From contig NZ_WJYO01000002.1 of NCBI RefSeq assembly GCF_010994095.1, forward strand, positions 372,001 to 436,000: a stretch of 64,000 nt of DNA, read 5' to 3'. Of the stretch, positions 6,789 through 58,888 are shown piece after piece. The notes below the pieces were generated by a model. The model was not told the DNA's origin. It saw only the letters and a list, made by a program, of their open reading frames with translations, and ran no database searches. A program made the translations under genes and the position numbers. Every line of letters starts with the position of its first letter. Within the stretch, counting starts at the first letter, position 1. Source of the stretch: Mumia xiangluensis (GTDB lineage Bacteria; Actinomycetota; Actinomycetes; Propionibacteriales; Nocardioidaceae).

Positions 6789-6811
6789 AGGGACGGACTC
6801 CTCACGTTCTC

Positions 6812-40792: not shown

Positions 40793-42211
40793 ATGTTCTC
40801 AAACCGCGACGAGCTCTTGGCCTACATCAGGAACGAGGGTGTTAAGTTCGTCGACGTCCGCTTCACCGACCTTCCCGGCATTCAGCAGCACTTCACGGTG
40901 CCGGTCTCGTCGTTCGACGAGGCGGTGTTCGAGGACGGGCTGATGTTCGACGGCTCCTCCGTGCGCGGCTTCCAGGCCATCCACGAGTCCGACATGGCGC
41001 TGTTCCCGGACCCGACCACCGCGTACCTCGACCCGTTCCGTCCGGAGAAGACGCTCGCGCTCGAGTTCTTCATCCACGACCCGCTGACGGGTGAGGCGTA
41101 CTCCCGCGACCCGCGCAACATCGCGCGCAAGGCCGAGGCGTACCTCGCCAGCACCGGCATCGGCGACACGGCGTTCTTCGCCCCGGAGGCGGAGTTCTAC
41201 GTCTTCGACAAGGCGCGCTTCGAGACGTCCGCCAACCGCGGCTTCTACGAGATCGACTCGATCGCCGGCGCCTGGAACACGGGTGCCGAGGAGGAGGCCC
41301 GCGGCTACAAGGTCCGCTACAAGGGCGGCTACTTCCCCGTCTCCCCCACCGACCACTTCGCGGACCTTCGCAACGACATGGTCCTCAACCTCGAGGACGC
41401 GGGCCTGCAGGTCGAGCGTGCGCACCACGAGGTCGGCACGGCCGGTCAGGCGGAGATCAACTACCGCTTCGACACGCTGCTCAAGGCGGCGGACGATGTC
41501 ATGAAGTTCAAGTACATCATCCGCAACACCGCGTGGGCCGCCGGCAAGACGGCGACCTTCATGCCGAAGCCGATCTTCGGCGACAACGGCTCGGGCATGC
41601 ACTGCCACCAGTCGATCTGGAAGGACGGCGAGCCGCTGTTCTACGACGAGGCGGGCTACGGCGGCCTCTCGGAGATGGCGCGCCACTACATCGGCGGCAT
41701 CCTGAAGCACGCTCCTTCGCTGCTGGCGTTCACCAACCCGACGGTCAACTCGTACCACCGTCTGGTGCCGGGCTTCGAGGCGCCGATCGCCCTCGTCTAC
41801 AGCTCGCGCAACCGTTCGGCGTGCGTCCGCATCCCGATCACCGGCTCGAACCCGAAGGCCAAGCGCATCGAGTTCCGCTGCCCCGATCCGTCGGCGAACC
41901 CGTACCTCGCGTTCTCCGCGCTGCTGCTCGCCGGCATCGACGGCATCAAGAACAAGATCGAGCCGCCAGAGCCGGTCGACAAGAACATCTACGAGCTGCC
42001 GCCGGACGAGTACAACCAGATCGAGTCGGTCCCGACCTCGCTCGGTGCGGTGCTCGACTCGCTCGAGGCCGATCACGAGTTCCTGACCCAGGGCGACGTC
42101 TTCACGCCTGACCTGATCGAGACCTGGATCGAGTACAAGCGCGACCACGAGATCGCTCCGATCGCGCAGCGTCCGCACCCGCACGAGTTCGAGCTCTACT
42201 ACGACATCTGA
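40793..42211 (+). CDS. glnA: Glutamine synthetase type I
   Basis: 472 aa, full-length. Makes glutamine from glutamate, ammonia and ATP. Motifs: DGSSVRGF and the glutamate/metal sites ([29 protein letters not shown]), ATP site [16 protein letters not shown], and the adenylylation Tyr in [12 protein letters not shown]-beta type. ATG follows GAGGAGG at good spacing. The gene is intact, but its last 16 bases (42196-42211) form the left end of an inserted island; the same 16 bases lie at 58643. Confidence 0.98.
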
Positions 42212-42249
42212 TCAGGAGGGCAGAAACCTGCCCTGACCTGCGCAAACAC

Positions 42250-42296
42250 ACGGCCCCCGCTGGCGGTTCCCCCCGGAATCCCCCGGCGGGGGCCGT
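42250..42296 (+). terminator. Terminator after glnA (inside the island's left end)
   Basis: ACGGCCCCCGC (42250-42260) pairs with GCGGGGGCCGT (42286-42296), followed by TGCG. It starts 38 bases after the glnA stop and now ends the glnA transcript. A similar hairpin beyond the right repeat at 58898 may be the original glnA terminator. Confidence 0.72.
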
Positions 42297-42347
42297 TGCG
42301 TTGTGTGCACGGTTGCACGATCCCCCGCGGACCGAACGGTCCCGGCC

Positions 42348-42668
42348 ATGAACATCGACCTGAACGCCCCAATCTGGGGCATCCACCACCTGGCGGACGC
42401 GCTCGGCCTCAGCGCCGACCGCGCTCGCGAGCACACCTACTCCCCCGCCTTTCCGGCCCCGAAGGCCGGCTTCGCGAGCAACCTGTGGCTCCGCGAGGAC
42501 GTGCTGGCCTGGTTCGCGGCACTGCCGACGACCGACCGGGTCCGACCGGCTGGGCGCAGGAACCACCCGCTTGTGTCCAAGCCCGCACCGGCGCCCGCAC
42601 CGTCGGAGCCCGCGTCGACCAAGGCGAAGCCCTACAAGCCCCGCGCTCGGAAGGCGGTCGCCGCATGA
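42348..42668 (+). CDS. Excisionase/AlpA-like helix-turn-helix protein
   Basis: 106 aa. The first ~65 residues have the layout of winged-helix excisionases: WGIHHLADALGLSADRAREH (HTH), FPAPKAGF, then LWLREDVLAWFAALP, followed by a basic Ala/Pro/Lys tail. Such proteins bind att-region sites and steer the integrase to excise. It lies 136 bases from the left attachment repeat, after a small inverted repeat GTGCA-CGGT-TGCAC (42305-42318), and its stop overlaps the integrase start (ATGA). Confidence 0.78.
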   Translation: MNIDLNAPIWGIHHLADALGLSADRAREHTYSPAFPAPKAGFASNLWLREDVLAWFAALPTTDRVRPAGRRNHPLVSKPAPAPAPSEPASTKAKPYKPRARKAVAA

Positions 42669-43972
42669 GCGCCACCGCAGGGTTCCGGGAGGTCATCGGC
42701 GGCGTCACCATCACGGGACCGAAGGCCAGCGGCTACTACAAGCTCAAGTGGATCGAGCCGGACGGAAAGCGGCGCGAGACCGACCGGGGCCCGAGTTTGG
42801 AGAAGGCGAGGTCCGCCGCCATCGACATCGCCACGCGCATCTCGCGAGCTGCTGGACCCGAGGCAGTCACCACGCTCGGAGCGATCAAATAGGCCTACCT
42901 TGCTCAGGGTCACAGCCCGTTCGGCGAGAAGCTCCTGTGGCAGGACGGCCACAAGACCCAGCTCGCGCGGACCTTGAAGCGAGTGCTCAAGGGCTTCGAG
43001 GGCACTGAAGCTCTCGAGGTCGACCGCGCGATGCTCGACGTGATGCGATCACAGGCCGGGACCGACAACATGGTCAAGGCCAACACCTCAGCCCTGAAGG
43101 GCATGCTGCGGTGGGGGCACCAGGCCAGGTACTTCACCCCGGTCCAGTCCGAGCTGCTCGTCCGGGGCGGCTCGTATCCCGCACCGGCGACTGCGGCCAG
43201 CACGCGACGGCCGCGCCGCAACACCCGCGCCAGGAACGCAGGCGAGTCCGCTGAGTACATCAGCCCTGAAGACGCGCCCAGCGGCGCCAAGGTCATCGAC
43301 CTCGCGCGGGAGCTCGACGCCTTCTACCCGACTTGGGGGCAGCTGGCGGTAGAATCCGCCGCGAACCTCGGCTTCCGGTGGGGCGAGGAGTTCCAGCTCG
43401 TGCCGTCCGACGTCCACCTGCGCGGCTGCCGTGAGCAGGAAGAGGCTCACGTCCACGTGGACTGGCAGGTGAACTCGGGAGCGAAGGCCGGGAGCCGGCG
43501 CTCGCGCCTGACCCTCCCCAAGGGCAACAAGCGCCGCATCGTCACCGTCACCGACATCTCCTTCACCGGGTTCGAGCTGGAGAGAGCGCTCGCCGCACGA
43601 GTCGACGCAGCCCTTCGAGAGCAAGAGGAGGGCAGCAACCCGGACGCCCTTCTGTTCCCCAGCGCCACCGGCAAGATGCTCTGGCACACCACGTTCACCC
43701 GTCATCTGCACGCCGCCATGCGGGCCGCCGACTGGCCCTACACCGAGTGGGTCGACGACCGCGACGGCAAGACGAAGACGGTCTACCACCTGACCTGGCA
43801 CTCCATGCGCCACCGGTACGCCCGCATCTGCATCGACGACTTCGACTACACAGCGGGTGAGCTCATGGTGGCAGGCGGATGGGAGAACGAGCTCACGGTC
43901 AAGAACCGGTACTACCGGTCCAGCGACGAGAACCGGAGGTCAGCCGCTGCCAAGTCGCGGCGGCGCGGCTGA
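42665..43972 (+). pseudogene. Tyrosine integrase interrupted by an in-frame TAG
   Basis: Reading from ATG 42665 (coupled to the upstream excisionase-like gene by ATGA), the frame codes an AP2-like/arm-binding N-terminus (TGPKASGYYKLKWIEPDGKRRETDRG) and a helix up to TTLGAIK, then TAG at 42890-42892. The same frame continues directly with AYLAQGHSPFGEKLLWQ and the SAM-like core-binding domain, then a full catalytic domain: Arg in LGFRWGEEF, HSMRHRYARI (His-x-x-Arg), GWENELTVKNRYYR with the Tyr. About 436 residues without the stop. One nonsense change, or suppression/restart at a later Met or GTG, would explain it. Its place beside attL makes it the island's integrase. Confidence 0.85.
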
Positions 43973-44064
43973 GGCCTTCAGTACGGTGCAGCAGGTTCGA
44001 AGTCGGAGCATGCCGCTAGGCTGGTTTTCCGACAGGCGTTCGCCCCAGATTCCGACGGGACCAC

Positions 44065-45264
44065 ATGTTCGGCACTCGGCAGTCGCTGCGCGAGTTCTTC
44101 GCGCAGCGGATGGACTGGGCTCTTCGTGAGGTGAGCAGCGTCGACCAGGACGTGCTGACCACCGAGCACGTCGACGTGCTGGTCGCGGCGGTCCTGGACA
44201 AACACATGCCTGTCGCTATCGACGTCCACTGGGACAGTCCGACCGCTTCCCCGATCACCGAGGTCATCACCCAGGTCCGCGACCAGTTCGACCAACGGAC
44301 CTACGACGTCGCGGCGAGTCGCATCGTCGTGTCCCATGTGCTGACAGGCACATCGGCGATGCTCGACTACGACGCGTCGACGTTTTCCATGAGCGGACCC
44401 GGCCAGGCAAAGATCTCGTCGACCTCAGTCGACGTCGAGGTCGTCGATCGCGCTCTCGACGCGGACCGCATCAAGCGCGTGGTGGGAAGCGCGAGGACCG
44501 ACGTGTCGAAACGCATCGGATGGGCCAACGTCGACTTGGCTCAGTTCCTCGTCTCCGCGGAGCAGAACGTCCGCGCCGCAGTCGAGAAGCGGCGCGCTCG
44601 GGTCCTTTCGGATCGCGCCTTGCAGGAATCCCTCGGGATCCCTGTCGCATCTACCGGCAGCCCGCCGCCAGCGGTGCCGGCGCGACGGAAGCACGTCTCG
44701 CTCTCGACGCGCACCACGCAGTCCGCATCCGTTCCGGAGCCGGTGCTCGACGACGCCATCTACCAGGACGTCCTCGACGCGGTCCGGGCCTGGTCGAACT
44801 CGCTCGAGCGTGCGCCGAGAACTGCGGAGAAGCTCGACGAGGAGGAACTTCGCGACCTGCTCCTGGCGAACCTCAACTCGTACTGGCAAGGCGGCGCCGG
44901 CGGCGAGCTCTTCAACGGCAGCGGAAAGACCGACATCCTCATCCGCCACGACGACCGAAACGTCTTCATCGGCGAGTGCAAGGTGTGGCACGGACCCAAG
45001 GGCGTCGCTGAGGCCCTCGACCAGCTGCGCGGCTACATCGTGTGGCGCGACAGCAAGGCGGCGCTGGTCATGTTCATCAAGACCGCCGACTCGGCAGCGA
45101 CCGTGGCGAAGCTGCACGCAGCGGTCGAAGCACATCCCAGTCACGTCCTGACCAAGGCGAGCACCAACCCCACTCACCGCGCGGACTACGTGGTCACCGC
45201 CGACGACGAGGGTCGTCGGGTCTCCCTGGCCGTCATCCCCGTGGTGCTCTCCTCCGGCCCGTAG
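44065..45264 (+). CDS. Hypothetical protein with a C-terminal PD-(D/E)XK-like nuclease domain
   Basis: 399 aa. No family recognised with certainty. The N-terminal 190 residues are mixed alpha/beta (FFAQRMDWALREVSSVDQ.. , VAIDVHWDSPTASPITEV), followed by a Pro/Ser/Arg linker (about 190-228), a helical segment (YQDVLDAVRAWSNSLERAPRTAEKLDEEELRDLL, in part) and a C-terminal domain. There, GKTDILIRHDDRNVFIGECKVWHG gives Asp290, then Glu304-Cys-Lys306, the spacing of a PD-(D/E)XK active site, with a possible extra Glu281. LDQLRGYIVWRDSKAALVMFI completes the fold. Position just inside the island after the integrase suggests a restriction or defence effector; no methylase or helicase partner is adjacent. 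Confidence 0.72.
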   Translation: MFGTRQSLREFFAQRMDWALREVSSVDQDVLTTEHVDVLVAAVLDKHMPVAIDVHWDSPTASPITEVITQVRDQFDQRTYDVAASRIVVSHVLTGTSAMLDYDASTFSMSGPGQAKISSTSVDVEVVDRALDADRIKRVVGSARTDVSKRIGWANVDLAQFLVSAEQNVRAAVEKRRARVLSDRALQESLGIPVASTGSPPPAVPARRKHVSLSTRTTQSASVPEPVLDDAIYQDVLDAVRAWSNSLERAPRTAEKLDEEELRDLLLANLNSYWQGGAGGELFNGSGKTDILIRHDDRNVFIGECKVWHGPKGVAEALDQLRGYIVWRDSKAALVMFIKTADSAATVAKLHAAVEAHPSHVLTKASTNPTHRADYVVTADDEGRRVSLAVIPVVLSSGP

Positions 45265-45350
45265 CCGGGTTCCCGCCGCGAAGACAGTGCTCGTCGGCCG
45301 CTTGGTGAGTCGATGGCCGCCGCGCTTCGGTAGGGCCGGATCAGTGGCGC

Positions 45351-45839
45351 TCAGGTGCCAGGTTCGTAGAGGCCGGTCATCCGACCGTCGGGATCGAGGG
45401 CGGAGAGCAGCGCGTCACCGATCTCGTGGAGCTGACGGACCTGGTCACCGGTGAGCGCGTCGACCACGTGCCGTCTCACGTTTGCGACGTGCCCCGGGGC
45501 GGCTTCGACGACCTTGGCCCAGCCCTCGTCGGTGAGCCGTGCGTTCGTCGCTCGCCGGTCCTCCGCGCACGGCTCGCGCACCAGCAACCCGCGCGCCTCG
45601 AGCCGTTTGGCCACGTGGGACAAGCGCGGCAGCGTGGCGTTGGAGAGCTGCGCGAGTGCGGTCATGCGAAGGGTCCTGTCCGGCGCCTCCGACAGCATGG
45701 CGAGCGCGAAGTACTCGAAGTGGGTCAAGCCGGAGTCCTCGCGCAGCTGGGCGTCCAGCGCACCGGGCAGGAGCTCCACCACGGCGACGAGCCGGACCCA
45801 GGCCGCGCGCTCGACGGGGGTCAGCCACCTCGTGTCCAT
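45351..45839 (-). CDS. MarR-family regulator (MhqR-like role proposed)
   Basis: About 162 aa winged-helix regulator. Core: HFEYFALAMLSEAPDRTLRMTALAQLSNATLPRLSHVAKRLEARGLLVRE (by parts), with the MarR wing signature AEDRRATNARLTDEGW. Start ATG 45839; a GTG six bases upstream is also possible. It is divergent from an F420-reductase-like, VOC, esterase operon and between them are two copies of a TTAGTTGAA-type site, so it very likely represses that operon and itself. The partner genes are those of quinone-sensing MhqR-type systems, hence the proposed ligand class. Confidence 0.88.
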   Translation of the reverse strand: MDTRWLTPVERAAWVRLVAVVELLPGALDAQLREDSGLTHFEYFALAMLSEAPDRTLRMTALAQLSNATLPRLSHVAKRLEARGLLVREPCAEDRRATNARLTDEGWAKVVEAAPGHVANVRRHVVDALTGDQVRQLHEIGDALLSALDPDGRMTGLYEPGT

Positions 45840-45854
45840 GGTCACATGATCGCA

Positions 45855-45906: not shown

Positions 45907-45918
45907 TAGGAGCTCACC

Positions 45919-46494: not shown

Positions 46495-46519
46495 CGGTGA
46501 CCGCGAAGAGGAGCATCCG

Positions 46520-47032
46520 ATGACCGTCAACGCCGTCCGGCTGAACCACGCCGTGCTCTACGTGGCCGACCTGTCCCGCAGCGTGTCCTTCTACGAGGCC
46601 GCGTTCGGGATGCAGGTGGCCGCACGCGAGCCGCGCGCCAATGCCGCCTTCATGCGGCTGCCCCGTTCCGGGAACCACCACGACCTCGGGCTGTTCGGGG
46701 TTGGCGCCCAGCCCCCGCGCCCTCGGGGCTCGCTGGGGCTCTACCACCTGGCGTGGCAGGTCGACACCATCGACGAGCTCGAGCAGAGCAGGATGACGCT
46801 GGCCGGTTTGAATGCCTACACGGGCGAGTCGAGCCACGGCGCCACCAAGAGCGTCTACGGGATCGACCCCGACGGCAATGAGTTCGAGGTCATGTGGATG
46901 CTGCCCCGGTCCGCCTGGGGCGAGTACGCCGATGCGGCGCCCGTGGAGCGCATGGACATCGCTGCCGAGGTCGCGCAGTGGGGTGGCGTGCGCACGGCTG
47001 CCGAGCTGGTCCCGCTGGAGGAGGCGCCGTGA
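46520..47032 (+). CDS. VOC-family dioxygenase/glyoxalase-like protein
   Basis: 170 aa. Two VOC half-modules: AVRLNHAVLYVADLSRSVSFYEAAFGM and YHLAWQVDTIDELEQ..YGIDPDGNEFEVMW (given by parts). Metal ligands would be His9-region, His in LYHLAWQV and Glu in GNEFEVMW, as in extradiol ring-cleaving dioxygenases such as MhqO/CatE. ATG 46520 with AGAGGAG. Its stop overlaps the next GTG (GTGA), so the esterase is translationally coupled. Proposed to open the ring of hydroquinone-type compounds. Confidence 0.85.
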   Translation: MTVNAVRLNHAVLYVADLSRSVSFYEAAFGMQVAAREPRANAAFMRLPRSGNHHDLGLFGVGAQPPRPRGSLGLYHLAWQVDTIDELEQSRMTLAGLNAYTGESSHGATKSVYGIDPDGNEFEVMWMLPRSAWGEYADAAPVERMDIAAEVAQWGGVRTAAELVPLEEAP

Positions 47033-47940
47033 CCGTCTCGTCCTTCGGCGCGCCGGTCGTCGCCACCTTCGGCGAGACCTCTCCCGACGCGCCCCTCGTC
47101 GTGCTGCTGCACGGGCGGGGGTCGAACGAGCAGGACATCCTTGCTCTCGCCCCGCACCTGCCCGGCGGCGTCGCCTACGCGGCGGTCCGGGCCCCGATCT
47201 CCGAGGGCGGCGGGTACGCCTGGTTCGCCAACCGTGGGATCGGCCGACCTGTCGCGGAGTCCCTCGCGGACACGATGGCGTGGTTCCGGGCCTGGCTCGA
47301 CGACATCGCTCCGGCGTGGCGACCCGTCGTCGTGGTCGGCTTCAGCGGAGGAGGCGCCTTCGCCGGCGGTCTCGTCCTCGACGACCCCGCACGGTTCGCC
47401 GGCGCCGCGGTGCTGTTCGCCACGCTGCCCTTTGAGGCCGGGGTACTCGTCGAGCCGAGCCGGCTCGCGCACCTGCCGGTCTTCGTGGCCCAGGGCGACC
47501 AGGACCAGGTGATACCCCGCGAGCTGCTCGACCGGACCTGGACCTACCTCCACGAGGCCTCGGGCGCACCGGTCGTCGGGAGACGCTCCCCCGGGGGTCA
47601 CGGCATCACGGCCCCGATCCTGGCCGACCTGGCGGGCTGGGTCCACGAGCGGCTCACCTACGTCGCACGCCAGGACGTGCCCGTGCCCGGTGCTCCGACG
47701 CACGCGGACTGGCCGACGATCGACGGCGGTGCGCTGCCGCGGCGTGGCGGACAGTCGATGGGCTCGAGGCGCCCAGCGGCTCTGATGCCTGATAGCGACG
47801 GCTGCGCCGAGCCCGGCAGGCCCACTCGCCAGCTACTTACGTCTGCCAGGTCGCCCCGAACGGTCCGTCCTGTACCCAGATCGGGTGCGAAGGCAAAGGG
47901 AAAGCTACGCATCGGTCGTTTCCCCTCTAGTGATGTCTAA
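47029..47940 (+). CDS. Carboxylesterase/phospholipase-family hydrolase (MhqD-like) with an abnormal C-terminal extension
   Basis: 303 aa as read. The core (about 1-210) is an alpha/beta hydrolase of the phospholipase/carboxylesterase family: VVLLHGRGSNEQDILALAPHL, nucleophile GFSGGGAF, acid in VAQGDQDQVIP, catalytic His in GGHGIT. Family members are 200-230 aa. After about residue 240 (..GGALPRRGGQ) the sequence becomes low-quality coding and runs through a repeat element at 47829, stopping at 47938-47940 in a 4-base overlap with the convergent SDR stop. Probably a recombination event removed the true end. Coupled to the VOC gene by GTGA. Confidence 0.82.
   Translation: MTVSSFGAPVVATFGETSPDAPLVVLLHGRGSNEQDILALAPHLPGGVAYAAVRAPISEGGGYAWFANRGIGRPVAESLADTMAWFRAWLDDIAPAWRPVVVVGFSGGGAFAGGLVLDDPARFAGAAVLFATLPFEAGVLVEPSRLAHLPVFVAQGDQDQVIPRELLDRTWTYLHEASGAPVVGRRSPGGHGITAPILADLAGWVHERLTYVARQDVPVPGAPTHADWPTIDGGALPRRGGQSMGSRRPAALMPDSDGCAEPGRPTRQLLTSARSPRTVRPVPRSGAKAKGKLRIGRFPSSDV
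47829..47907. repeat. Left copy of a diverged ~80-bp direct repeat
   Basis: Aligned by hand with 51351-51430: about 68 of 79 positions match with one single-base gap. The best shared block is ACCCAGATCGGGTGCGAAGG, containing ACCC..GGGT symmetry. The two copies bracket the SDR-SDR-MmyB cassette and lie in the same orientation. Confidence 0.85.
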
Positions 47941-48698
47941 GCTTGGGCGGTGGGCATGGCCCAGAGCTCGGCGATCGACGAACGGCGGGGGCGGGTGACC
48001 ATGTAGGCGATGGACTCGGCGATGTCTTGGGGTTGGAGCCACTCGGCGATGTCGTCGGAGGCGGCCAGCGCCTTCTTGACGTCGTCGGTGTTGTGGGAGA
48101 CCAGTTCCGTCTCGACGGCACCCGGTTCGAGGAGACCGACGCGCACGTGAGACTTCGTGACCTCTTGGCGAAGGGCTTCGGTGAAGCCGTTCACGCCGAA
48201 CTTGGTCATGTTGTAGACGCCGAAGGTGGGCCAGGCGACACGTCCGGCGATGGAGGAGATGTTGACGATGTCGGCGACGCGGCGGGGTTCGCGGGTCGCG
48301 GCCGCCTGCAGGTGCGGCAGGGCTGCCCGGGTCATGGAGAGCAGGCCGGTCTGGTTGATCGCGATCATGCGGTCCCAGTCCTGGATGTCTTGCTCGGAGA
48401 CCGTGCCGAGCAGCATCAAGCCCGCGTTGTTGATGAGGATGTCGAGGCGACCGAGGTCGGCCACGGTCCGCTCTACCGCTGACGTCGCCTGGGCTCGGTC
48501 GGTGATGTCAGCAGCGATGGCCAACGCCGTACCTCCAGTGTTCTGAATCTCGCCGACGAGAGCGTCGAGATGGTCCTGGCGCCGCGCTACGACCGCGACG
48601 GAGGCGCCGTGGGCGGCGAGTTCGAGGGCGGTGGAGCGACCGATGCCGCTGCTGGCGCCGGTGACGATGGCAACCGTGCCAGCGAGGTGCTTGTTCAT
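47937..48698 (-). CDS. Short-chain dehydrogenase/reductase
   Basis: 253 aa classical SDR. NAD(P) site VTGASSGIGRSTALEL, then NNAG in ILINNAGLMLLG, catalytic Ser in IVNISSIAGR, and YNMTKFGV (Tyr-x3-Lys). After NADP choice, LEPGAVETEL follows. Substrate unknown. Arg pair after the Rossmann turn (VVARRQDHL) points to NADP. ATG 48698. It lies 34 bases downstream of another SDR in the same direction; both are divergent from the MmyB-type regulator. Confidence 0.9.
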   Translation of the reverse strand: MNKHLAGTVAIVTGASSGIGRSTALELAAHGASVAVVARRQDHLDALVGEIQNTGGTALAIAADITDRAQATSAVERTVADLGRLDILINNAGLMLLGTVSEQDIQDWDRMIAINQTGLLSMTRAALPHLQAAATREPRRVADIVNISSIAGRVAWPTFGVYNMTKFGVNGFTEALRQEVTKSHVRVGLLEPGAVETELVSHNTDDVKKALAASDDIAEWLQPQDIAESIAYMVTRPRRSSIAELWAMPTAQA

Positions 48699-48732
48699 GG
48701 GTGGGGTTCCTTCGGGTCTGCCAACGAGCTGG

Positions 48733-49605
48733 TCAGGCGTTGTCGTGGGCAAGGCTGGTGGACAGCTCGCGGTGGGCGTTGGCCTGGTCGATGAGGGCCT
48801 GGGCCTTGGTCTCGAAGAGCTCGACGGCGTCGGCGCCGGCGGCGAAGCGCGACGGACGCTCCTGCAGACCAGCGAGGTGGACGAGTGCTGCGGCGAGCTT
48901 GGCGGGGTCGCCGCCCTGCTGACCATCCATGCCCTGCCACGCCTGGATGGTGGCGGTGGTGCGGTCGGCGTAGTCCTCGATGGACGGGGCCGCGTACTGG
49001 GTGGACTGCGGGCTCAGGAGCTCGGTGCGGAAGAAACCGGGCTCGACGAGCATCGTGTCGATGCCGAAGGGTGCGACCTCGGTCGCCAGACCTTCCATGA
49101 AGCCCTCGACGCCGAACTTGGAGGCGGCGTAGGCGGTCAGGAAGTCGCCTGTGGAGGCGATGCCGGCGGTCGAGGAGATCGTGATGACGAGGCCTGAACG
49201 CTGAGTGCGCATCTGCGGGAGAGCTGCACGAGTGACGTTGACGGGTCCGAAGAGGGTCGACTCGATCTGGGAGCGGAACGCCTCGGGGCTCATCTCCTCG
49301 AAGAAGCCCGCCTGGAAGCTGCCGGCGTTGTTGACGACGACGTCGAGGCGGCCGAACCGCTCGACGGCTGCGCGGACGGCGGCCTCGGCGGCGGCGGGGT
49401 CGGTGACGTCCAGCGGCACGGCGAGCAGGGCGTCGTGGCTGCCGAGAGCCTGGTCGATGCTGTCGGTGCTGCGTGCGGTGGCGACGACGGCGTGGCCGGC
49501 GGCGAGTGCGGCCTTGGCGATGTCGACGCCGAGGCCGCGGCCTGCTCCGGTCACGAGCCACACGCTCTTGTCGGTGGGCTGGAGAGTCTGGGTGTGCTCG
49601 CTCAT
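48733..49605 (-). CDS. Short-chain dehydrogenase/reductase (second)
   Basis: 290 aa, with ATG 49605 chosen because AGAAGGA lies six bases before it. Cofactor site VTGAGRGLGVDIAKAA, VVNNAGSFQAG, ITISSTAGI and YAASKFGVEG are the classical SDR motifs; LVEPGFFRTELL is typical of the family that oxidises or reduces small carbonyl compounds. A TARSTDSIDQ turn suggests NADP. It shares a promoter region of about 140 bases with the divergent regulator, which probably controls both SDR genes. Confidence 0.9.
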   Translation of the reverse strand: MSEHTQTLQPTDKSVWLVTGAGRGLGVDIAKAALAAGHAVVATARSTDSIDQALGSHDALLAVPLDVTDPAAAEAAVRAAVERFGRLDVVVNNAGSFQAGFFEEMSPEAFRSQIESTLFGPVNVTRAALPQMRTQRSGLVITISSTAGIASTGDFLTAYAASKFGVEGFMEGLATEVAPFGIDTMLVEPGFFRTELLSPQSTQYAAPSIEDYADRTTATIQAWQGMDGQQGGDPAKLAAALVHLAGLQERPSRFAAGADAVELFETKAQALIDQANAHRELSTSLAHDNA

Positions 49606-49748
49606 GGTCATTCCTTCTGGTCGTGGTGGCGTCCTTTCCGGGCGCCAACGACCACACAACCAGCGCAGAACCGTCGGCGGGAGTCCTGCTCGTAGGGGTC
49701 ACTGACAGGGACCCCTACAGGAGCCAGACCGCTCGTACAGTGGACGTC

Positions 49749-50651: not shown

Positions 50652-51490
50652 TCGCTCGTCGTCGCACCCGGGCGTTCGCACTGTGGGCGGTGTTGAGCAC
50701 TGCTGGTGTCCTCCCGTTTCCAGGTGATCGACTACGCCGAGAAGTTGAGGTCCGCGAACCTGACCATCACGCTCACCGAACGCGCAACGCCAGGAGCGAC
50801 GGCTGCAGAAGTCCTACTGCCGCCTCCACACGATCGAGGTTGAAAGGCAATCGGCTAGATTCCACCCGCATACGGGCGCGAGATGGCGCGGTTCGACGAC
50901 GACCCGCCCTTACTCCTCAGCGCCTTTCGACAGGTTGAGTCGGCCGGTGTGCGAGGCGTTCGAAGATGTGGCGCACGACACTGCGTGAAGGACTGCAGGA
51001 CCGGTTCAACATTCCGACCATCCCTCTCGTAAGGAGTTGGTCTGGCCCACCCGCGCCCAACGATTGCCTGAGTCGCCGACCTGCACAGACCCAACCGCTG
51101 AACGACCGCCGGGGTGAACGCAGGGCTGGCCGCAGAACGTCGGGCTCGATGGTGGTTGAACGTCGCGGCACGTCGCGGACCTCCTGGGCTTCGACCTCCG
51201 TCCGGTCCGGCGCCCACCTCATCCGGTCCCTGCCTCTACACACTTCCTCGCCCTGGGTCCCGCCCTCGACACCTCGACGATTTCGCCTACCTCCTGCGGG
51301 CCGGTGCTCAACAGGTGTGGCCGGCGACGCTAACGCTCCGCCCTGCCCGGCCAACTACTTGCGTCTCCCAGGTCGGCCTGGACGGTCCGTTCAGCACCCA
51401 GATCGGGTGCGAAGGGAAAGGGAAGAGCTATTCCCTTGCCCTTCAACGAGGCCCGTGATCTCGGGCAGAACGGCACCTACAGTGACTCAG
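50652..51490. other. 839-bp gene-poor stretch in the island
   Basis: No convincing gene on either strand: possible frames have poor start sites, Arg/Pro-rich composition and no recognisable motif. It contains the right copy of the ~80-bp repeat (51351-51430) and the upstream region of the recombinase pair. A short frame 50725-50825 (VIDYAEKLRSANLTI..) may be a gene remnant. It looks like debris from rearrangement. Confidence 0.6.
51351..51430. repeat. Right copy of the diverged ~80-bp direct repeat
   Basis: Partner of 47829-47907, same orientation, with CACCCAGATCGGGTGCG as its best-kept core (CACCC..GGGTG symmetry). It lies 61 bases before the first recombinase of the tandem pair, a sensible place for a recombination target. 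Confidence 0.85.
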
Positions 51491-52645
51491 ATGAACCCCT
51501 CGGGGAACCATGAACGACGCGCGAACGAGAACGACGTCGACGACGACGTCGATGGTGGGCAGACGGGACCACCGGATGCTCTCGAGATGTTCCGGCGCGC
51601 TGGCGAACACCACGCCTCCACACGGGGGACCGTCCGTACGGCGAACGAGGACTGGTGTGACCCCAACCCCGCTGCTGCGCTCGAACTACCGCCGGCCGCA
51701 CATCCGATCGAACGAAGCCTGGCCAGGCGTGCTGAGCACCGGCGGCCCGACTTCTATCTCCAGCTGCGGCGAGCGTGCGAACGCCTCCGAGGTTTGCCGC
51801 CGAAGAGCTTGACGCGTGAGGACGTGCTGGCGTTCTCCTGGCATCAGCTGACTCCTGACGACCTCGCCGACTACCGGCGCGACATCCACAAGATGTTCAA
51901 CCTGCAGTCGACTCGGAACGAATGCATGGTCACCGTGCGCAGTGTCGTGCACGCCTGCGCAAAGGCCCGCCTGATCAGTCCTCTTCGCCGCGATCTCCTC
52001 TTGGACGAGCTCCCCACGACCATGCCCGGCCGGTCCGCGAAGGGGCGGGCCTTGGCCGAGGACGAGGTCGGCAGACTCCTTCGCCAGTGCAGCACGACCG
52101 GATCCGCTGCCGCACGCACCCGCTACACCGCCATGATCGCGCTGATGTACTCCTCGGGGGTGCGCGTCGGCGAGGTCGCCAAGCTGGAGCTGCGGGACTG
52201 GAACCGGAGCACGAGCACCCTGACACTCCTGCACACGAAGAACGGACGTGACCACACCGTCTTCGTACACCCAGAGGTCGCCCTGCTCCTTGACAATTGG
52301 CTGAAGGTGCGGGGCGCGCTTCCTGGTGCGCTGTTCTGCTCCCTGTACGTGTTCGGATTCGCGCACATGACTGGGCCCACCATCAGGACGATGGTCCATC
52401 GCCGAGCCAAAGATGCCGGCCTTGCCCATTTCACTCCCCACGACTTCCGGCGGACTTTCGCATCATTCATGCTCCGCACCCACGACCATGCACTCGTCAG
52501 CCGGCTCCTGAACCACGAGAAGCTCCAGTCGACGCTCGTCTACGACATGGCCGGAGATGACCTGCAGCGCGATGCCATCGCTTCGTTCGACCTCCCCTCG
52601 TCCAACCCTGTGGAGAAGGACGAAGAGACGGACGGCCGACGATGA
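51491..52645 (+). CDS. Tyrosine recombinase, first of an overlapping pair
   Basis: 384 aa. About 110 acidic and Pro-rich N-terminal residues, then a core-binding domain (SLTREDVLAFSWHQLTPDDLADYRRDIHK, in parts) and the catalytic domain: Arg in YSSGVRVGEVAKLE, Lys in HTKNGRDHTVFVH, HDFRRTFAS (His-x-x-Arg), LLNHEKLQST, and nucleophile Tyr in LVYDMAGDD. C-terminal end LQRDAIASFDLP. All catalytic residues are present. ATGA overlap with the second recombinase: the two are made together. Such paired recombinases form bipartite modules in many actinobacterial genomes. Confidence 0.9.
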   Translation: MNPSGNHERRANENDVDDDVDGGQTGPPDALEMFRRAGEHHASTRGTVRTANEDWCDPNPAAALELPPAAHPIERSLARRAEHRRPDFYLQLRRACERLRGLPPKSLTREDVLAFSWHQLTPDDLADYRRDIHKMFNLQSTRNECMVTVRSVVHACAKARLISPLRRDLLLDELPTTMPGRSAKGRALAEDEVGRLLRQCSTTGSAAARTRYTAMIALMYSSGVRVGEVAKLELRDWNRSTSTLTLLHTKNGRDHTVFVHPEVALLLDNWLKVRGALPGALFCSLYVFGFAHMTGPTIRTMVHRRAKDAGLAHFTPHDFRRTFASFMLRTHDHALVSRLLNHEKLQSTLVYDMAGDDLQRDAIASFDLPSSNPVEKDEETDGRR

Positions 52646-53613
52646 CCGGACTGCATCTTGTCTCCCTCGAAGAGGGCGAGCGCCTGGCCATGCGCGAGGC
52701 TGCGCTCACCCTGTTCAAGAGGCGGTACCGTCACAACGCGGAGAGCCAGCGGGCGATGATCGGAGCACTGCGACGCGTCGCCAGCACCTTCAGCCAGGGC
52801 CGCGAGGACGAGCAGACCTTCGCCTGGGAGTACATCACTGACGAGGCCATCGCAGAAGCAGTCCTGGCGCCGGTGGCGGACCGGTACTCCCGCGCCACGC
52901 TCGTCAAGGACGCCTCAGCGCTTCGCGTGATGCTGAACTGCTGCCGCAAGGTCGGGTTGGTGACGCACGACGAGTACGACAGCGTCACCAAGCTCGAGGT
53001 CCTCGGTGGACAGACCAGGCGGCCACCGGGTCGGTACCTGAGCGAGGCCGACGTCGCCACGCTCGTGCGCGCCGCCGCATCCATGGCGCAGCACGAGGCA
53101 ACGCGCACCCGCGACCTCGCGCTGGTTCTGACGCTCGCAAGCACAGGCGCCAGGGGCCATGAGGTCTCGCGGATCAGGCTTCACCACACCTTCCTCGGAG
53201 AGCGGCGAGTCCACCTGCAGGAGACGAAGTCGGGCCTCCCTCGCAACGCCTGGCTGCATCCCGCGACTGTCCACGCTCTCGAGCGGTGGCTCGAGTTCCG
53301 TGGAGCAGCAAAGGGGGCGCTGTTCCCTCCGCTCTCGCGCACCGGCCGTGCCTTGATTGACCACGGTCCCATGAGCACTCATCAGGTGTGGAAGCTCGTC
53401 CACCGGCTCGCTGAGGTCGCCGACCTGCCCGGCACCACTGTGCACGATCTTCGTCGCTTCGTGATCACCACACTCCTCGACAACGGCTACGACATCGCCC
53501 TCGTGGCAAAGACCGTCGGGCACGCGCACCCCACCACCACCGCCGGCTACGACAAGCGACCGGGGCAACGCCAGCGCGACGCGATCGCCGCGATCAACCT
53601 GCCGCTCGGCTGA
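52642..53613 (+). CDS. Tyrosine recombinase, second of an overlapping pair
   Basis: 323 aa. Core-binding part with LFKRRYRHNAESQRAMIGALRRV (in part), and catalytic domain: Arg in STGARGHEVSRI, Lys in QETKSGLPRNAWL, HDLRRFVITT, GHAHPTTTAGYDKR (His and the Tyr nucleophile). It ends RQRDAIAAINLP, like the end of its partner (LQRDAIASFDLP), a sign of common origin. ATG overlaps the upstream stop (ATGA). All active-site residues seem present. Its DNA target is unknown. Confidence 0.9.
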   Translation: MTGLHLVSLEEGERLAMREAALTLFKRRYRHNAESQRAMIGALRRVASTFSQGREDEQTFAWEYITDEAIAEAVLAPVADRYSRATLVKDASALRVMLNCCRKVGLVTHDEYDSVTKLEVLGGQTRRPPGRYLSEADVATLVRAAASMAQHEATRTRDLALVLTLASTGARGHEVSRIRLHHTFLGERRVHLQETKSGLPRNAWLHPATVHALERWLEFRGAAKGALFPPLSRTGRALIDHGPMSTHQVWKLVHRLAEVADLPGTTVHDLRRFVITTLLDNGYDIALVAKTVGHAHPTTTAGYDKRPGQRQRDAIAAINLPLG

Positions 53614-53722
53614 GCTGTCGCCTACAGCGCCGATGCATCGGACGCCCGCCGCACGGGATACCGAGCCGAGGTGTCGCCTGTGCGGCGGAGACCGCCGTCC
53701 TGCCTCGTTGAAGACGCAGGAG

Positions 53723-54103
53723 TCAGCGCCACTCCGCCGCCAGACGACGCGCGTAGGCTGCGAGCCGCTCGGGAGCGACACCGTCACGGGCCGCGTCGAG
53801 CGGGGTGCGATCGTCGAGCTCCGGGGCGGCTGTGCGGAGCGCCGCGATGGCCACGGTCCAGCGGTCGGTGGCGCGGAGCTCGCGGAAGACGGCTTGGAGT
53901 GCGGGTCGTACGCGAACACGGCCGTCGGCCCTCTCGAACTGCTCCACGGGGTAGATGTTCACGGGAGTCGGGTCCGAGGTCGGTAGGGCGAGGATGTCGT
54001 CGTGCGCCTCGAGGTCGCGCAGTTCATGCTCGGCGAGAGCCAGCTCGCGGCAAACCTTCTCCTCGGACCAGAATGGCCGCAGGAGCTCGGCGAGCTCGTT
54101 CAC
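53723..54103 (-). CDS. MbcA/ParS/Xre toxin-binding-domain protein (antitoxin-like)
   Basis: 126 aa from GTG 54103, which overlaps the upstream stop by four bases (GTGA). The C-terminal part VRVRPALQAVFRELRATDRWTVAIAALRT..ELDDRTPLDAARDGVAPERLAAYARRLAAEW (by parts) fits the DUF2384 toxin-binding domain of MbcA/ParS/Xre antitoxins, with PELDDRTPLDAARDG as the signature. Its usual partner is a RES-domain toxin; no RES gene is adjacent. The partner here is a 73-aa protein of unknown type, so either the pair is a new variant or the toxin was lost. Confidence 0.75.
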   Translation of the reverse strand: MNELAELLRPFWSEEKVCRELALAEHELRDLEAHDDILALPTSDPTPVNIYPVEQFERADGRVRVRPALQAVFRELRATDRWTVAIAALRTAAPELDDRTPLDAARDGVAPERLAAYARRLAAEWR

Positions 54104-54321
54104 CGGCACTGCAGCACCTTGCCGTCGGCGTCGCACTCGGACCAGCTGCGGCCCCGTTCACGGAACTCGGTGGCAAGGTCGAGGCCGTTGCGACGATCGG
54201 ACATGCGCTGGTCCCACGCTTGTCGGACTCGCGCCTGCGCATCGACGTTGGCGTCGTCGTAGGCGAGCGCGCCGGACAAGACTCTCTCGACCTCGCGGCT
54301 CACCGTGGGCTCGTTCGACAT
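54100..54321 (-). CDS. Small protein coupled to the MbcA/ParS-like gene
   Basis: 73 aa: MSNEPTVSREVERVLSGALA, a helix with DDANVDAQARVRQAWDQRMSDRR and a C-terminal half FRERGRSWSECDADGKVLQC. Not recognised. Two cysteines near the end. It overlaps the next gene by GTGA and is clearly coupled to it. It could be a DNA-binding partner or a small toxin; nothing in the sequence decides this. Confidence 0.6.
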   Translation of the reverse strand: MSNEPTVSREVERVLSGALAYDDANVDAQARVRQAWDQRMSDRRNGLDLATEFRERGRSWSECDADGKVLQCR

Positions 54322-54614
54322 GGCCGGCACCTCCATCTGTCGCGTCCAGCCTACGATCCGAGCAGCCCAATAGGTAGGACTCGCGTCCTGACCATCTCTC
54401 GCGGAGCGCTGCCAAGCGCTGCTGGCGCCGACCGATGGCTGGTATGGCGACGGCACCCGCCGCGCACGACTCGCCGACTCGACCCCAGCTGGTGGGCCAG
54501 CACGGACAAGCCGACAACTGGTCTTCGTACTCGATTCTCGCGTGCGGGGCAGGATCATCACCTACCGTTCTCGGACAGCCGCGCGAGGGAGCGAGGCCAG
54601 GACCCGGGGTGATC

Positions 54615-56223
54615 ATGGGACTCTTCGACAGGTGGCGGAGCTCTGCTCCGGCCGGCAAGCATCGCGCGACGGCGGCCGAGGCCGTCACCCCTGGCGGCTA
54701 CACCGTCATCGACGTCGAGACCACCGGCCTGAGTGCCCAGCACCACCGGGTCTTGGAGATCGCCGTGGTGCGCACCGACGCGGCCGGCCGTATCACCGGC
54801 GAGTGGTCGCGCCGGGTCGATCCAGAGGGACCGGTGGGCGCGACCCACATCCACGGCATCACCGGCGAGTGGTCGCGGTGCCCCGAAGTTCGGCGACCTC
54901 ATCCCCCACTTGAATGAGTCGATCCAGGGCACGGTGCTGGTGGCTCACAACGCGCGCTTCGACGCCGCGTTCGTCCGCGCCGAGTACTCCAACGCCGGCT
55001 GGGACCTCCCGTGGCTGCCGACGTTGTGCACGTTGGAGGCCAGCAGCTACTACCTGCCGGACATGGACCGCCGTCGGCTCGCGGACTGCTGCGCGCTGGC
55101 GCGAGTGCCGCTTCGGGGCGCACACTCCGCCTTGGGCGACGCGCGGGCCACCGCGGGACTGTTGAGCCACTACCTCGACCCCCGCAACGGCACCGCGCCC
55201 CACCCCGACCACCTCGCCCTGACCGCCGAGGCTGCTGCCGTCGTCTGGCCGGGCTCGCCGACACGCGCACCCCGCCCGGCCGCAGCCATCACCCACACCC
55301 GGGCACGCATCCAGATCAACCAGGCGAAGAAGGCAGCGTCCCCACCGGCGCTTGTGCAGCTCCTCGCCGACTTCTCCCTCGTCGACGCGCTGGACGAAGG
55401 AGCACCGGCATCGACGCTGCCCTATGTCGAGATGCTGGCCGAAGCGCTCGAGGACGGCGAGATCTCGACCGCCGAGGCTCAAGCCCTTGACGACGTCGCC
55501 ACCACCCTCGACCAGAGCGAGCAGGACCGTGCGGCCGCGAACCGGTCGTTGCTGCTGGCTCTGTCCCACCTGGCGCTCGAGGACGGCGTCGTCAGCCGCG
55601 CCGAGAAGGCCGAGCTCGTCAACGTCTGCACGCTGCTCGGCCTACCCGCCACGCTCCTGACGCACACCCTGGATCAGGCAGAAGCCGCCCGGCACGAACG
55701 CCTCTCCGCCGGACTCGGGCCCCTGCCGGACCCGTGGACCCTCGGTGAACCGCTGCGGGTCGGCCACAAGGTCGCGTTCACCGGCTGCGACGAGGCGTTG
55801 CGCGACCAGCTCGAGCGCCGAGCCGAGGCCCTCGGCGTTCGCGTCATGAACAGCGTGTCCACCAAGACCTTCCTGCTGGTCACCGACGGAACCTTCTCCG
55901 GCGGCAAGGCCGCCGACGCCGCTCGCGTCGGGTGCCGCGTCGTCCACCCGAACGACTTCGCGACCCTCCTGCAACACCTCCAGCCTGCCGCCGTCCGCGA
56001 GCGCAAGAAGGTGCCGCAGACGGGATCCGCGCCGTCGGTCAGCCCCACAGGAGCCGCCAGCCCCGCGCTCGCCGAGCGCGCCGACCCTGCCGTCGTCCGG
56101 CAGTGGGCCAGGGACAACGGCTACGCGGTCGGCACGCGCGGACGGCTCCACCAGGCCCTCTTCACCGCCTATGCTTCACGCGAATCCGACGTCTCAGATC
56201 CAACGCCTGCACCCCTACCCTGA
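54615..56223 (+). pseudogene. DEDDh exonuclease-TerB-BRCT-Lsr2 fusion, frameshifted in the exonuclease domain
   Basis: ATG 54615 opens GLFDRWRSSAPAG and the Exo I motif IDVETTGLSAQ, but the frame ends at 54915-54917 after HIHGIT. The rest continues in the +1 frame: GAPKFGDLIPHLNESIQGTVLVAHNARFDAAF (Exo II, in parts) and HSALGDARAT (Exo III), then a TerB-like helical domain (ADFSLVDALDEG..LEDGEISTAEAQALDD..LALEDGVVSRAEKAEL), a BRCT domain (VGHKVAFTGCDEALR.. TFLLVTDG..KAADAARVGCRVV) and an Lsr2-like DNA-binding end (VVRQWARDNGYAVGTRGRL). About 535 residues if repaired. The frameshift lies at a 20-base duplication (54792-54811 and 54858-54877). Intact forms are probably DNA-end or defence nucleases. 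Confidence 0.85.
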
Positions 56224-56315
56224 CCCTGGCGGCCGACTAGCAGTCCAGGAGTCCGTACCCGAACTCGCCGCATCAACAGCGGTTGAAACGATCGGGTCGT
56301 GCTTGGATCCTGTCC

Positions 56316-56969
56316 ATGCGCGAACCCACCTTCACCGACCAGGTCTCAGCGTGGTCGGAACTCACTGGCACGGTGTTCTCGTTTCTCGTCCTCCTCATTG
56401 CGCTCGCGACGTGGCGCACTGCTCGGCAGGCACTTCGCGCCTCCCGCGACGCGAACATTCAGACGAAGCGCGACAGCATCGAGCAGACACGCCCCTACGT
56501 CTACGCCGAGGTCGTACCGAGCCTCGCTGGCTCGCCCAACTGGGACGTCCGCGTCGTCAACGTCGGCAAGTCCGCAGCCCTCGATCTCCGCCTCGACTAC
56601 TCGGACTGGCCCGAGAGACCGGATGACATCGCGCAGTCCGTGAGAACCTTCTTCACCACCGCCCGGACGCTGGCACCCGGCTCGAGCATTCGAGCGATGT
56701 GGCGCCTCGAGTCCGGTCCCGACAGCCAGTTCGACGACGGGACCGTTGCGGCCGGTCTCGGCAAGAACGGCAGGATCACCGTGGCCTACCGGAGTTCCGA
56801 CCTGGAAGCACCGCACTACAGCGACGACTTCCACGTGATGGTCGAAGACTCGGGGCTGTGGCCCATTCCAGAGGCGGGGCCGTCTGGACACCGCCTGTCA
56901 GGCGACAAGCTGGCGTTCTACCGGCTCGGTCAGAGTATTGCGCGCGCCATAGGAGAGCAGCGCCGCTGA
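56316..56969 (+). CDS. Single-pass membrane protein upstream of the HEPN gene
   Basis: 217 aa from ATG 56316. One clear helix near the N-terminus (ELTGTVFSFLVLLIALATW) followed by a basic helix (RTARQALRASRDANIQTKRDSIEQTRPY) and a soluble beta domain (YVYAEVVPSLAGSPNWDVRVVNVGKSAALDLRLDY, in parts). This is the shape of many small phage-defence-linked and housekeeping hypothetical proteins; function unknown. It lies 24 bases before the ApeA-like gene on the same strand, so the two are probably co-expressed. Confidence 0.75.
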   Translation: MREPTFTDQVSAWSELTGTVFSFLVLLIALATWRTARQALRASRDANIQTKRDSIEQTRPYVYAEVVPSLAGSPNWDVRVVNVGKSAALDLRLDYSDWPERPDDIAQSVRTFFTTARTLAPGSSIRAMWRLESGPDSQFDDGTVAAGLGKNGRITVAYRSSDLEAPHYSDDFHVMVEDSGLWPIPEAGPSGHRLSGDKLAFYRLGQSIARAIGEQRR

Positions 56970-56993
56970 CCCCGGCGACCCGCATGATGGAAC

Positions 56994-58304
56994 ATGCCCA
57001 ACGTGCTCGAGCCTGACAGCGCCCGCGTCGGCTTCTGCTGGGACCGAGGGCTGCCGGACGGCTATCCGGCGATGCTCCGCAACACCGGCCGGGAGATCGA
57101 GCTCGTCGTGCCGCACTTCCGCGAAGACGACGTTCACCGCCGACGATTCGCCGGCCGTGGCGTCAGCTTCGGTGACGACCCCGACTACAAGCTCCACGAC
57201 TACGAGGTACCAGAGGTGGTCTGGTTCGCCGACACCCACGGCCATCTATGCCTGCTCGACCCCTACCGATCGCGAACCACGCTCGGTGGGGGCCTCGAGG
57301 AAGGCGGCGCCTACTTCCGCTTCGCCGTCGCGGCCGGGCGCAAAGGCATCGACTACACCCGCATCAACGGGATGCACACGAGGCTCCAGGGCTTGAACGA
57401 GTGGACACGCCTCGGCTCGGTGGACCATGAGGTCACACGACACGACCGAGGCCGGCGGACTGCGGTCTACCTCCAGGCGCCTCAACCGCTGAACATCTCG
57501 CCGCGACTCAACGCGAGGCTGGAAGGCTGGCACTCCTGGTCCCTGGCCGACAGAAGTCAGGCCGGCGTCAGCATGATCGCGGATGGCGTGCGGGTCTCCA
57601 CCAATGTCCTCCGGCCTCGGACCTGGGCCGAACACCTGGACGTGCACAACGCGATCCGTCAACTCCTCACCGTCGCCGGTTGGCAGGCGTACGGCTTCGA
57701 ACACGTCGAGGTCCAAAGCCGACGCGACCCGGAACGGGCCCTCGACGACCACCCCGTGTGGGATCGATGGGCACCTGTCTACACCCACGATCTACAGGCA
57801 CCTGGAGACGTCGAGAGGAGTCGCTACCTGTTCGAGTTCGACGACATCGGCGAGGCCGGCGTCCGTCGCTGGTTCAAGCTGCGCGAGCGTCACACCCGCG
57901 GCATCGCCGGCATGATTCACTCAGTCAGCAGCCCCGACGCCGCCCTCGAGACCCTCTTCTCCGAGGCAGCCGCCGCCATGGAGGACATCGGCTACAACAT
58001 CGCCGTCGAGCGAGGCGACGTACCTGGTAAACAGATCCGCGAACACCTGCGCCGCATCGTCGACGAGATCGACGTGGACCTCGGCTTCGACCTCAACACC
58101 TGGCGCCTCGACGTCGCCGACAAGTACCGGATGGTCAAGCACCCCGAGCACCCCGACGTGGACTCATTAGACCTGCTGAACCTCCTCCGCGAGACCCGCC
58201 TCCTGTTCCGAGTCTGGGTCGCGCGGCGCCTGGGCACTACGAAGAAGGTCATCGAACGCAACCTCCGGCTCGTGCCGATGCGTCGGCCCTACGTCCGGCT
58301 CTGA
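56994..58304 (+). CDS. ApeA-like protein with C-terminal HEPN-like domain
   Basis: 436 aa. The N-terminal ~330 residues resemble the ApeA N-terminal domain: beta-rich with GVSFGDDPDYKLHDYEVPEV, then IDYTRINGMHTRLQGLNEWTRLG, a pattern in that family. The C-terminal ~100 residues are helical, with RMVKHPEH (Arg379-x6-His386) as a possible HEPN Rx4-6H RNase motif, then LLRETRLLFRVWVARRL. ApeA-type HEPN proteins are reported anti-phage abortive factors. Location beside the island's right end and next to the membrane protein agrees. Assignment is by pattern, and the R-x6-H spacing is at the long end of the range. Confidence 0.65.
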   Translation: MPNVLEPDSARVGFCWDRGLPDGYPAMLRNTGREIELVVPHFREDDVHRRRFAGRGVSFGDDPDYKLHDYEVPEVVWFADTHGHLCLLDPYRSRTTLGGGLEEGGAYFRFAVAAGRKGIDYTRINGMHTRLQGLNEWTRLGSVDHEVTRHDRGRRTAVYLQAPQPLNISPRLNARLEGWHSWSLADRSQAGVSMIADGVRVSTNVLRPRTWAEHLDVHNAIRQLLTVAGWQAYGFEHVEVQSRRDPERALDDHPVWDRWAPVYTHDLQAPGDVERSRYLFEFDDIGEAGVRRWFKLRERHTRGIAGMIHSVSSPDAALETLFSEAAAAMEDIGYNIAVERGDVPGKQIREHLRRIVDEIDVDLGFDLNTWRLDVADKYRMVKHPEHPDVDSLDLLNLLRETRLLFRVWVARRLGTTKKVIERNLRLVPMRRPYVRL

Positions 58305-58888
58305 ACTGCCGGCCCGCACCCGCGTCGCCGGAGCCCCTTCGGGCCGAAGGGTCGTACGCACCCGCGCAGCATGTGGCTCGCAGAGTCGTCTCCTGGTCGA
58401 GTTCGACCCGGAGTGTTGAACGACCGCCAACCCTCAGACACCCGCCGGTTCACCCGAGGCGCTGGACACGCGGCGCCCCCGCACGCAGACTCAACTGCAT
58501 GCTGCCATTCCCCCAGTTTTCCCCCGACTGGGTGCCTACCGAGCCCGTGAATAGCGCCTACGCCTGGGCGACGCCGATCGCGCGCAACCCCCTGACCAGG
58601 CAAAACATGGAGACGGCGTCGCCCCTCGTGCGGAGTCAGCTACTACTACGACATCTGAGGAGTGAGCCGAAGGGGATCGCGAGGTACGAGCGGTCCCCGG
58701 AGGCGAGCCCCGCAAGATGTCGTACAAAGGACAGAGTCATCTGTCGGTCGTACAAAAGACAGAGTCATCTGTCGGTCGTACAAAAGACAGAGTCATCTGT
58801 CGGTCGTACGAAGGACAGAGTCATCTGCCGGTCGTACAACCCACAACTGAACACAGACGCTGAGGGGCATGCCGCCCCCGCCTGCTCC
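58305..58888. other. 584-bp region with the right attachment repeat and a tandem array
   Basis: No gene seen. It holds the 16-base copy of the glnA 3' end (58643-58658), then the 28-bp array (58720-58845). Left of 58643 it belongs to the island; right of 58658 it is the former downstream region of glnA. Confidence 0.75.
58720..58845. repeat. 28-bp tandem array with a palindrome in each unit
   Basis: Units begin at 58720, 58748, 58776, 58804 and 58832 (the last partial), exact 28-base step, with two or three single-base differences. Each full unit contains GACAGA-GTCA-TCTGTC, a 6-bp dyad with four-base spacer, plus GGTCGTACAAA. It lies just outside the island's right repeat, in what would be the glnA downstream region. 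Iteron-like or operator-like in appearance; no spacers as in CRISPR. Confidence 0.93.

Follow-up and report, generated by a model that had tools for sequence, protein, structure and literature searches.

A probable integrative island at the 3' end of glnA in Mumia xiangluensis and the recurrent use of this gene end in its family

In a 64,000-nucleotide stretch of the Mumia xiangluensis genome (contig NZ_WJYO01000002.1, positions 372,001 to 436,000; the whole stretch is called the window below, and positions are counted from its first letter), the glutamine synthetase gene glnA is followed by a segment of 16,447 bp that is bounded by two copies of the last 16 bases of the gene. This raises the question whether the segment is an island that has used the end of a protein-coding gene as its landing site, and whether this gene end serves other islands as well. 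The evidence indicates that the segment is very probably an integrative island that entered the glnA 3' end by site-specific recombination at the 16-bp core, and that the glnA 3' end is a hotspot, i.e., a recurrent site for islands in the family.

The two core copies and the sites inside them

The features that define the borders are the following.

40794..42211, + strand: glnA, glutamine synthetase, from sequence, start codon picked by eye; the final 16 bases are the left core
42196..42211, + strand: left core copy (attL-like), exact 16-bp repeat
58643..58658, + strand: right core copy (attR-like), exact 16-bp repeat, read as the displaced glnA 3' end
42267..42284, + strand: left arm-like site of paired TTCCCCC, found only twice in the window
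58508..58525, + strand: right arm-like site of paired TTCCCCC, the second occurrence
42233..42247, + strand: CTGACCTGCGCAAAC motif, left inner side, a host-wide motif
58592..58606, + strand: CTGACCAGGCAAAAC, from comparison of elements a diverged copy of the CTGACCTG motif, right inner side

The original prediction had stated that the final 16 bases of glnA recur at 58643-58658, and this was borne out: CTACTACGACATCTGA, which includes the stop codon TGA, has an exact copy there, and no match other than these two was found in the window when up to two mismatches were allowed (chance mean 0.02). When 2000 random 16-mers of the window were treated as controls, none was matched at 16/16 in the following 20 kb, and 17 were matched at 15/16. 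As in gene-restoring islands, the direct repeat at both borders is the 3' end of the gene (16/16), and the glnA reading frame is complete at the left border, in line with the claim that the enzyme is preserved. The 3' part of glnA has matches in 54 of 58 relatives. A mere chance repeat was dropped as an explanation in view of the core statistics, the random 16-mer control and the arm pair.

This arm pair, TTCCCCCNNNNWTCCCCC, has two occurrences in the window, one just inside each core (chance mean 0.01), and a search for TTCCCCC-N4-(A/T)TCCCCC on both strands with up to one mismatch found no further site (shuffled mean 0.01). At the level of sequence, putative arm-type sites therefore flank the element's own core at either end. 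The TTCCCCC pair, with a gap of 3-4, is likewise present on both sides in six of seven elements that are of the type of the island integrase IntL described below (window, G289, G295, G208, G164a and G016), and the seventh, G213, has what by eye is a four-C variant. It is absent from both non-IntL elements checked (G164b and G013) and from 11 further loci with two copies of the glnA end. Next to the cores, a CTGACCTGCGCAAAC-like motif is situated about 20 bp inside the left copy in 6/7 of the IntL-type elements and about 51-53 bp inside the right copy in 5/7, being diverged at the latter place in the window and present as a one-base variant at the right inner site of G289 and G208. Taken together, arm pair and inner motif form the layout to be expected of an attachment site that has arms on either flank.

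The integrase IntL, its sister islands and the search for empty sites

Two genes adjoin the left core.

42348..42668, + strand: 106-aa excisionase-like (Xis-like) protein, no Pfam match; homologues near glnA in G164, G073, G213 and G016
42671..43972, + strand: tyrosine integrase IntL, interrupted; both pieces match homologues elsewhere, the C-terminal part with a weak PF00589 match

A Xis-like gene and an integrase had been predicted beside the left copy, and both occupy these positions; the integrase, however, is interrupted by a TAG. The smaller gene is one we take to be excisionase-like from the appearance of its product. The frame of IntL is open for 73 codons from 42671, meets the in-frame TAG at 42890-42892 and is open again to 43972, and its C-terminal part (42974-43972, 332 aa) matches PF00589 with E 1.8e-4, below the gathering score. 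IntL homologues are 44-49% identical, and four of the six aligned members match PF00589. Thus, a tyrosine integrase gene adjoins one border, with its frame interrupted in the window, and some sister integrases are likewise interrupted or shortened (G208 first copy, G213, G164). Given the in-frame stop, the window island is probably fixed and now immobile, unless another recombinase acts on it. In G289 and G208 (L095, L097), two different IntL-type integrase genes are arranged in tandem at the left end of the island, and in G208 the first of them is interrupted.

The interruption, together with a second, G013-like type of integrase at the glnA end in other genomes, could also suggest that a different integrase, since lost, inserted the island and that IntL is a passenger. 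However, IntL adjoins the left core and is accompanied by arm pairs at either end, an arrangement shared by sister islands whose IntL frames are open, whereas the G013-type loci have no TTCCCCC pairs, which renders a lost integrase very unlikely.

IntL relatives (E up to 1e-40) were identified in 8 of 294 genomes of the family, which is taken to be Nocardioidaceae, the window's own genome included. In seven of them glnA is directly upstream (own, G073, G164, G208, G213, G289 and G295), and in the eighth, G272, a displaced copy of the glnA end precedes the gene. Named genomes contributed 10 IntL loci, three of which are those of G073, G208 and G272. The glnA coding sequence is upstream in six of the ten (Nocardioides caldifontis, Nocardioides sp. 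zg-1308, a Frankiales metagenome-assembled genome (MAG), Oerskovia merdavium, Cellulomonas alba and C. triticagri), and a glnA-type end without glnA in two (C. uda and N. rubriscoriae). The homologue in a Dermatophilaceae MAG (L112) has a murA-like end about 2 kb upstream with other DNA between, and no glnA-type or murA-like end is visible on a short Naasia contig. A known phage or plasmid was dropped as the source, as IntL had no match in 50,697 phage records or in plasmid records, and the IntL alignment had none in viral contigs.

Seven IntL-type loci (window, G289, G295, G208, G213, G164 and G016; G073 and G272 are outside this set) were searched for a second core copy over 19-40 kb, in the window over 22 kb. 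The best downstream copy matched at 16/16 in five and at 13/16 in two (G208 and G016), compared to 11-12/16 in all six control loci without IntL (G001-G005 and G035).

We propose that recombination took place between the chromosomal 16-bp core, consisting of the glnA end and its stop codon, and an identical core on a circular island. IntL and the small Xis-like protein would be the most likely agents of this crossover and of any excision, and the paired TTCCCCC sites flanking the island's own site would be bound as arms. Since the island would bring the same 16 bases and its own terminator-like hairpin, glnA would keep its full frame and transcript end, and the displaced original glnA end would become the right border. 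The interior holds a redox-type gene cassette, a further pair of recombinases and genes that are candidates for a role against phages, and a later in-frame stop in IntL would have left a copy that is probably fixed. The predicted role of the glnA 3' end as the integration site of a 16.4-kb island is hence supported by the direct repeat, the adjoining integrase, the arm-like sites and the sister islands.

Several observations weigh against this proposal. GC content is flat and does not set the island apart, and compositional distinctness was dropped as an argument for this reason. The IntL frame is broken by a stop codon and matches Pfam only weakly, the core copy reaches no more than 13/16 at two of the seven sister loci, and one of these, G016, was classed as IntL-type through its arms and Xis-like gene, without an IntL match. 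The core followed by GGAGTGAG occurs in one of the 294 family genomes, which is the window's own right copy, and 58659-58842 has no match in the fetched post-glnA DNA of five congeners (G001-G005). Finally, a palindromic repeat has a first arm that overlaps with the right core copy, and this repeat alone supplies about 10-11 of the 16 core bases. The repeats at this border are the following.

58647..58724, + strand: palindromic repeat overlapping the right core, arms 58647-58656 and 58715-58724; relatives at gyrB and murA 3' ends elsewhere
58719..58839, + strand: 28-bp tandem repeat, 4.3 copies, outside the island, before a SnoaL-like gene

The 16-bp match could accordingly be coincidental, if a dispersed palindromic repeat starting with CGACATCTGAGGAGTGAG happened to resemble the glnA end and the true right end of the island were elsewhere. 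The repeat is indeed found independently at gyrB and murA 3' ends: the exact word GACATCTGAGGAGTGAG occurs 11 times in 58 genomes, at nine gyrB-/murA-like 3' ends, in one tandem duplicate and at the right copy in the window. The nine genes were presumptively named by their C-termini, and the five checked against Pfam belong to the gyrase B or the EPSP synthase family, the latter being that of MurA. As the repeat accounts for so many of the matching bases, the arm evidence matters here. The arm pair marks both ends independently, the extra upstream bases CTACT would match by chance at about 5e-4 (estimated from base composition), and the same core is present without the palindromic repeat in sister islands, so that we consider a coincidence very unlikely. 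The palindromic repeat at the right copy also fits a displaced gene end. Repeats starting with GACATCTGAGGAGTGAG (window 58647-58724; L132-L142) are associated with gene ends in several genera.

An empty site, in which the base at 42211 is joined directly to 58659, had been suggested as a check. None was found for this species, nor for any IntL-type island, but a sister island with the other integrase type provided one. G154, which carries a 5.1-kb island with a G013-type integrase, and G062 form a clean filled/empty pair, in which the right flank is collinear with the post-glnA sequence: a stretch of 53 bp at the core is 77% identical, an 842-bp block at nearly equal offsets (782 and 841) is 79% identical and a block of 1,387 bp beyond it 86% identical, and the island interior has no match in the post-glnA sequence of G062. 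G305 and G094 are a weaker pair with a single shared block at near-equal offsets and nothing at the core. The five congeners have different sequence after glnA. The distance from glnA to the conserved right-flank genes is 20-35 kb in G002-G004 and at most 5 kb in G005, and in G001 these genes were not encountered over 39 kb; given this distance, G001-G004 may not be empty sites. The 16.4 kb gave short weak matches only in these five genomes (up to 121 bits, with 40 of 594-803 candidates scored per genome).

A hairpin-rich region with a terminator-like stem follows glnA in several relatives (L121, L122, L124-L126 and L128-L130, and the order-level relatives L047, L056 and L059). Its interpretation as the native empty site was withdrawn, as second core copies are located 3.5-25 kb downstream in G169, G027, G165 and G141, and such a structured region can therefore be the left end of an island; it may be native or an island end. 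Comparison with Rfam returned no family for the region around the glnA 3' end, either in the window or in four loci of relatives (L121, L122, L125 and L126).

The glnA 3' end as a recurrent landing site

The 15-mer TACTACGACATCTGA, taken from the glnA end, is present in 192 of the 294 family genomes and in two exact copies in 28 (a hand count of exact copies, base-changed ones not included), and the reversed control gave 0 throughout. Use of glnA had been called unusual in the original prediction; within the family, it is not rare. As some single-copy loci are not preceded by glnA and resemble right-hand copies, 28 may be an undercount. Both places are known for 21 of the 28 genomes: in 17 they are on the same contig and strand, 1.4-80 kb apart, and in four on different contigs or opposite strands. 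The examined set of the 17 comprised the window, G289, G213 and 11 fetched loci, with G163, G229 and G282 (75-80 kb) outside it.

In each of the 11 fetched loci, the copy that comes first belongs to the glnA end, with the other downstream of it. A G013-like integrase, convergent to glnA, adjoins in five (G160, G100, G154, G152 and G305, the last with a weak PF00589 match), integrase matches are weak in two (G236 and G159), and none was found in four. No match to the IntL queries was obtained in these loci with the E limit raised to 10. In G164, G152 and G272, the glnA end has neighbouring elements.

The glnA 3' end would be a new protein-coding hotspot among bacterial island landing sites, for which the 16-bp core, arm-like sites and an integrase clade are now defined. 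The IntL clade could be developed into an integration tool for use in Nocardioides and relatives, and the glnA end a predictable place to seek anti-phage systems. Moreover, two mutually non-matching integrase types at one gene end pose the question of what makes a good target end.

A wider reading, which we regard as doubtful, would make the glnA 3' end a landing site of defence islands throughout the family, reached by convergence of at least two unrelated integrase lineages. A short word at the gene end, CGACATCTGA (Asp-Ile-stop), would be common to glnA, murA and gyrB and would recur in the palindromic repeat at the ends of the latter two, and the island attachment sites would use the host-wide motif CTGACCTGCRNAAAC, also found near dnaA, dnaB and carD and perhaps recognised in a sequence-specific manner by an actinobacterial integration host factor. 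In 10 genomes, CTGACCTGNNNAAAC occurred 4-11 times per genome, with no occurrence of the reversed control except in G056, which has 3. Thirty of these places were made into loci (L143-L172); two of them are directly behind tRNA genes, and the neighbours in seven picked loci are dnaB (3), carD (2), dnaA (1) and an integrase (1). A host DNA-binding protein as the recogniser of CTGACCTGNNNAAAC would be a guess from sequence.

Cargo genes and relation to known elements

The remaining assigned genes of the island are the following.

44065..45264, + strand: candidate defence protein PDC-S54 (PADLOC, E 1.2e-104)
45351-45845, - strand: MarR regulator (Pfam, NCBIfam)
46894-47940, + strand: esterase-like open reading frame (ORF) (Pfam, NCBIfam)
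47937-48926, - strand: SDR (Pfam, NCBIfam)
49473-50651, + strand: MmyB-like regulator (Pfam, NCBIfam)
50966-52645 and 52642-53613, + strand: adjacent tyrosine recombinase pair (PF00589, E 2.6e-24 and 9e-20)
54733..56223, + strand: exonuclease/BRCT/Lsr2-domain protein, candidate defence PDC-S48 (PADLOC, E 6.2e-99)
56994..58304, + strand: protein with ApeA N-terminal domain (PF18862, E 5.8e-15)

PDC presumably stands for phage defence candidate; the ApeA-domain protein had no PADLOC match. Among the sister islands, G213 (10 ORFs) has a type II restriction-modification pair and Mad- or Lamassu-like proteins, as we expand the PADLOC labels. The second G164 element encodes AbiEi and AbiEii, G034 encodes AbiEi, and single members among 35 pooled ORFs of G289, G208 and G295, unassigned to an island, match models of a DISARM methylase, a type IIG and a type II enzyme. 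The first G164 element (five ORFs) gave a single weak match (E 2e-6) and G016 (one ORF) none. As ORFs were picked by length and GC bias, genes will have been missed. The island in the window and several of its sisters carry defence genes, either known or candidate, with a defence function that we infer from these matches.

The recombinase pair raises the possibility of a composite segment, with an IntL island on the left and on the right a later unit that brought the two other recombinases (50966-53613) and defence genes. This would be in line with the three recombinase genes in the segment and with G164, G152 and G272, in which elements neighbour each other at the glnA end. On the other hand, a search of the window that allowed two mismatches revealed no core copy beyond the known two, indicating that a later unit did not use the 16-bp core, and no convincing terminal repeats flank the pair. 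A composite origin is thus possible, albeit rather unlikely.

The kind of element is already known. Integrative and conjugative elements of the pSAM2 type in actinomycetes usually occupy tRNA sites; they share with the island the actinobacterial host and an integrase with a small Xis-like gene next to the attachment site. The island differs in its glnA site, and no conjugative transfer gene or replication initiator was matched by Pfam among 18 island ORFs, a subset of all ORFs. Structural phage genes, for which Pfam was the only resource used and PHROGs was not searched, were likewise without a match in this subset. According to the available parts of PMC12884075, the gene-reconstituting islands of TIGER/Islander resemble the present island in having an integrase beside the attachment site, a direct repeat of a gene end, a whole gene and cargo; the present island differs by its glnA site, a distinct integrase clade and the interruption of the integrase. 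Adjacent tyrosine recombinases are also shared with recombinase in trio (RIT) elements, as far as these are described in the accessible parts of PMC8138268. In contrast to those, the island has only two adjacent PF00589 genes and no convincing terminal repeats around them, and the ORFs beside the pair (53633-53986, 53671-54612 and 53723-54136) have no family match that would provide a third. In the portions of the literature searched, neither glnA as a target nor a glnA attB in print was found: PMC8138268 and PMC12884075, as far as available, mention neither glnA nor glutamine, and the accessible text of PMC8270828, PMC11755657 and PMC6071183 refers to glnA or the glutamine synthetase gene in other contexts.

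Elsewhere in the window, a c-di-AMP riboswitch (Rfam RF00379) is located at 6800-6941 on the - strand.

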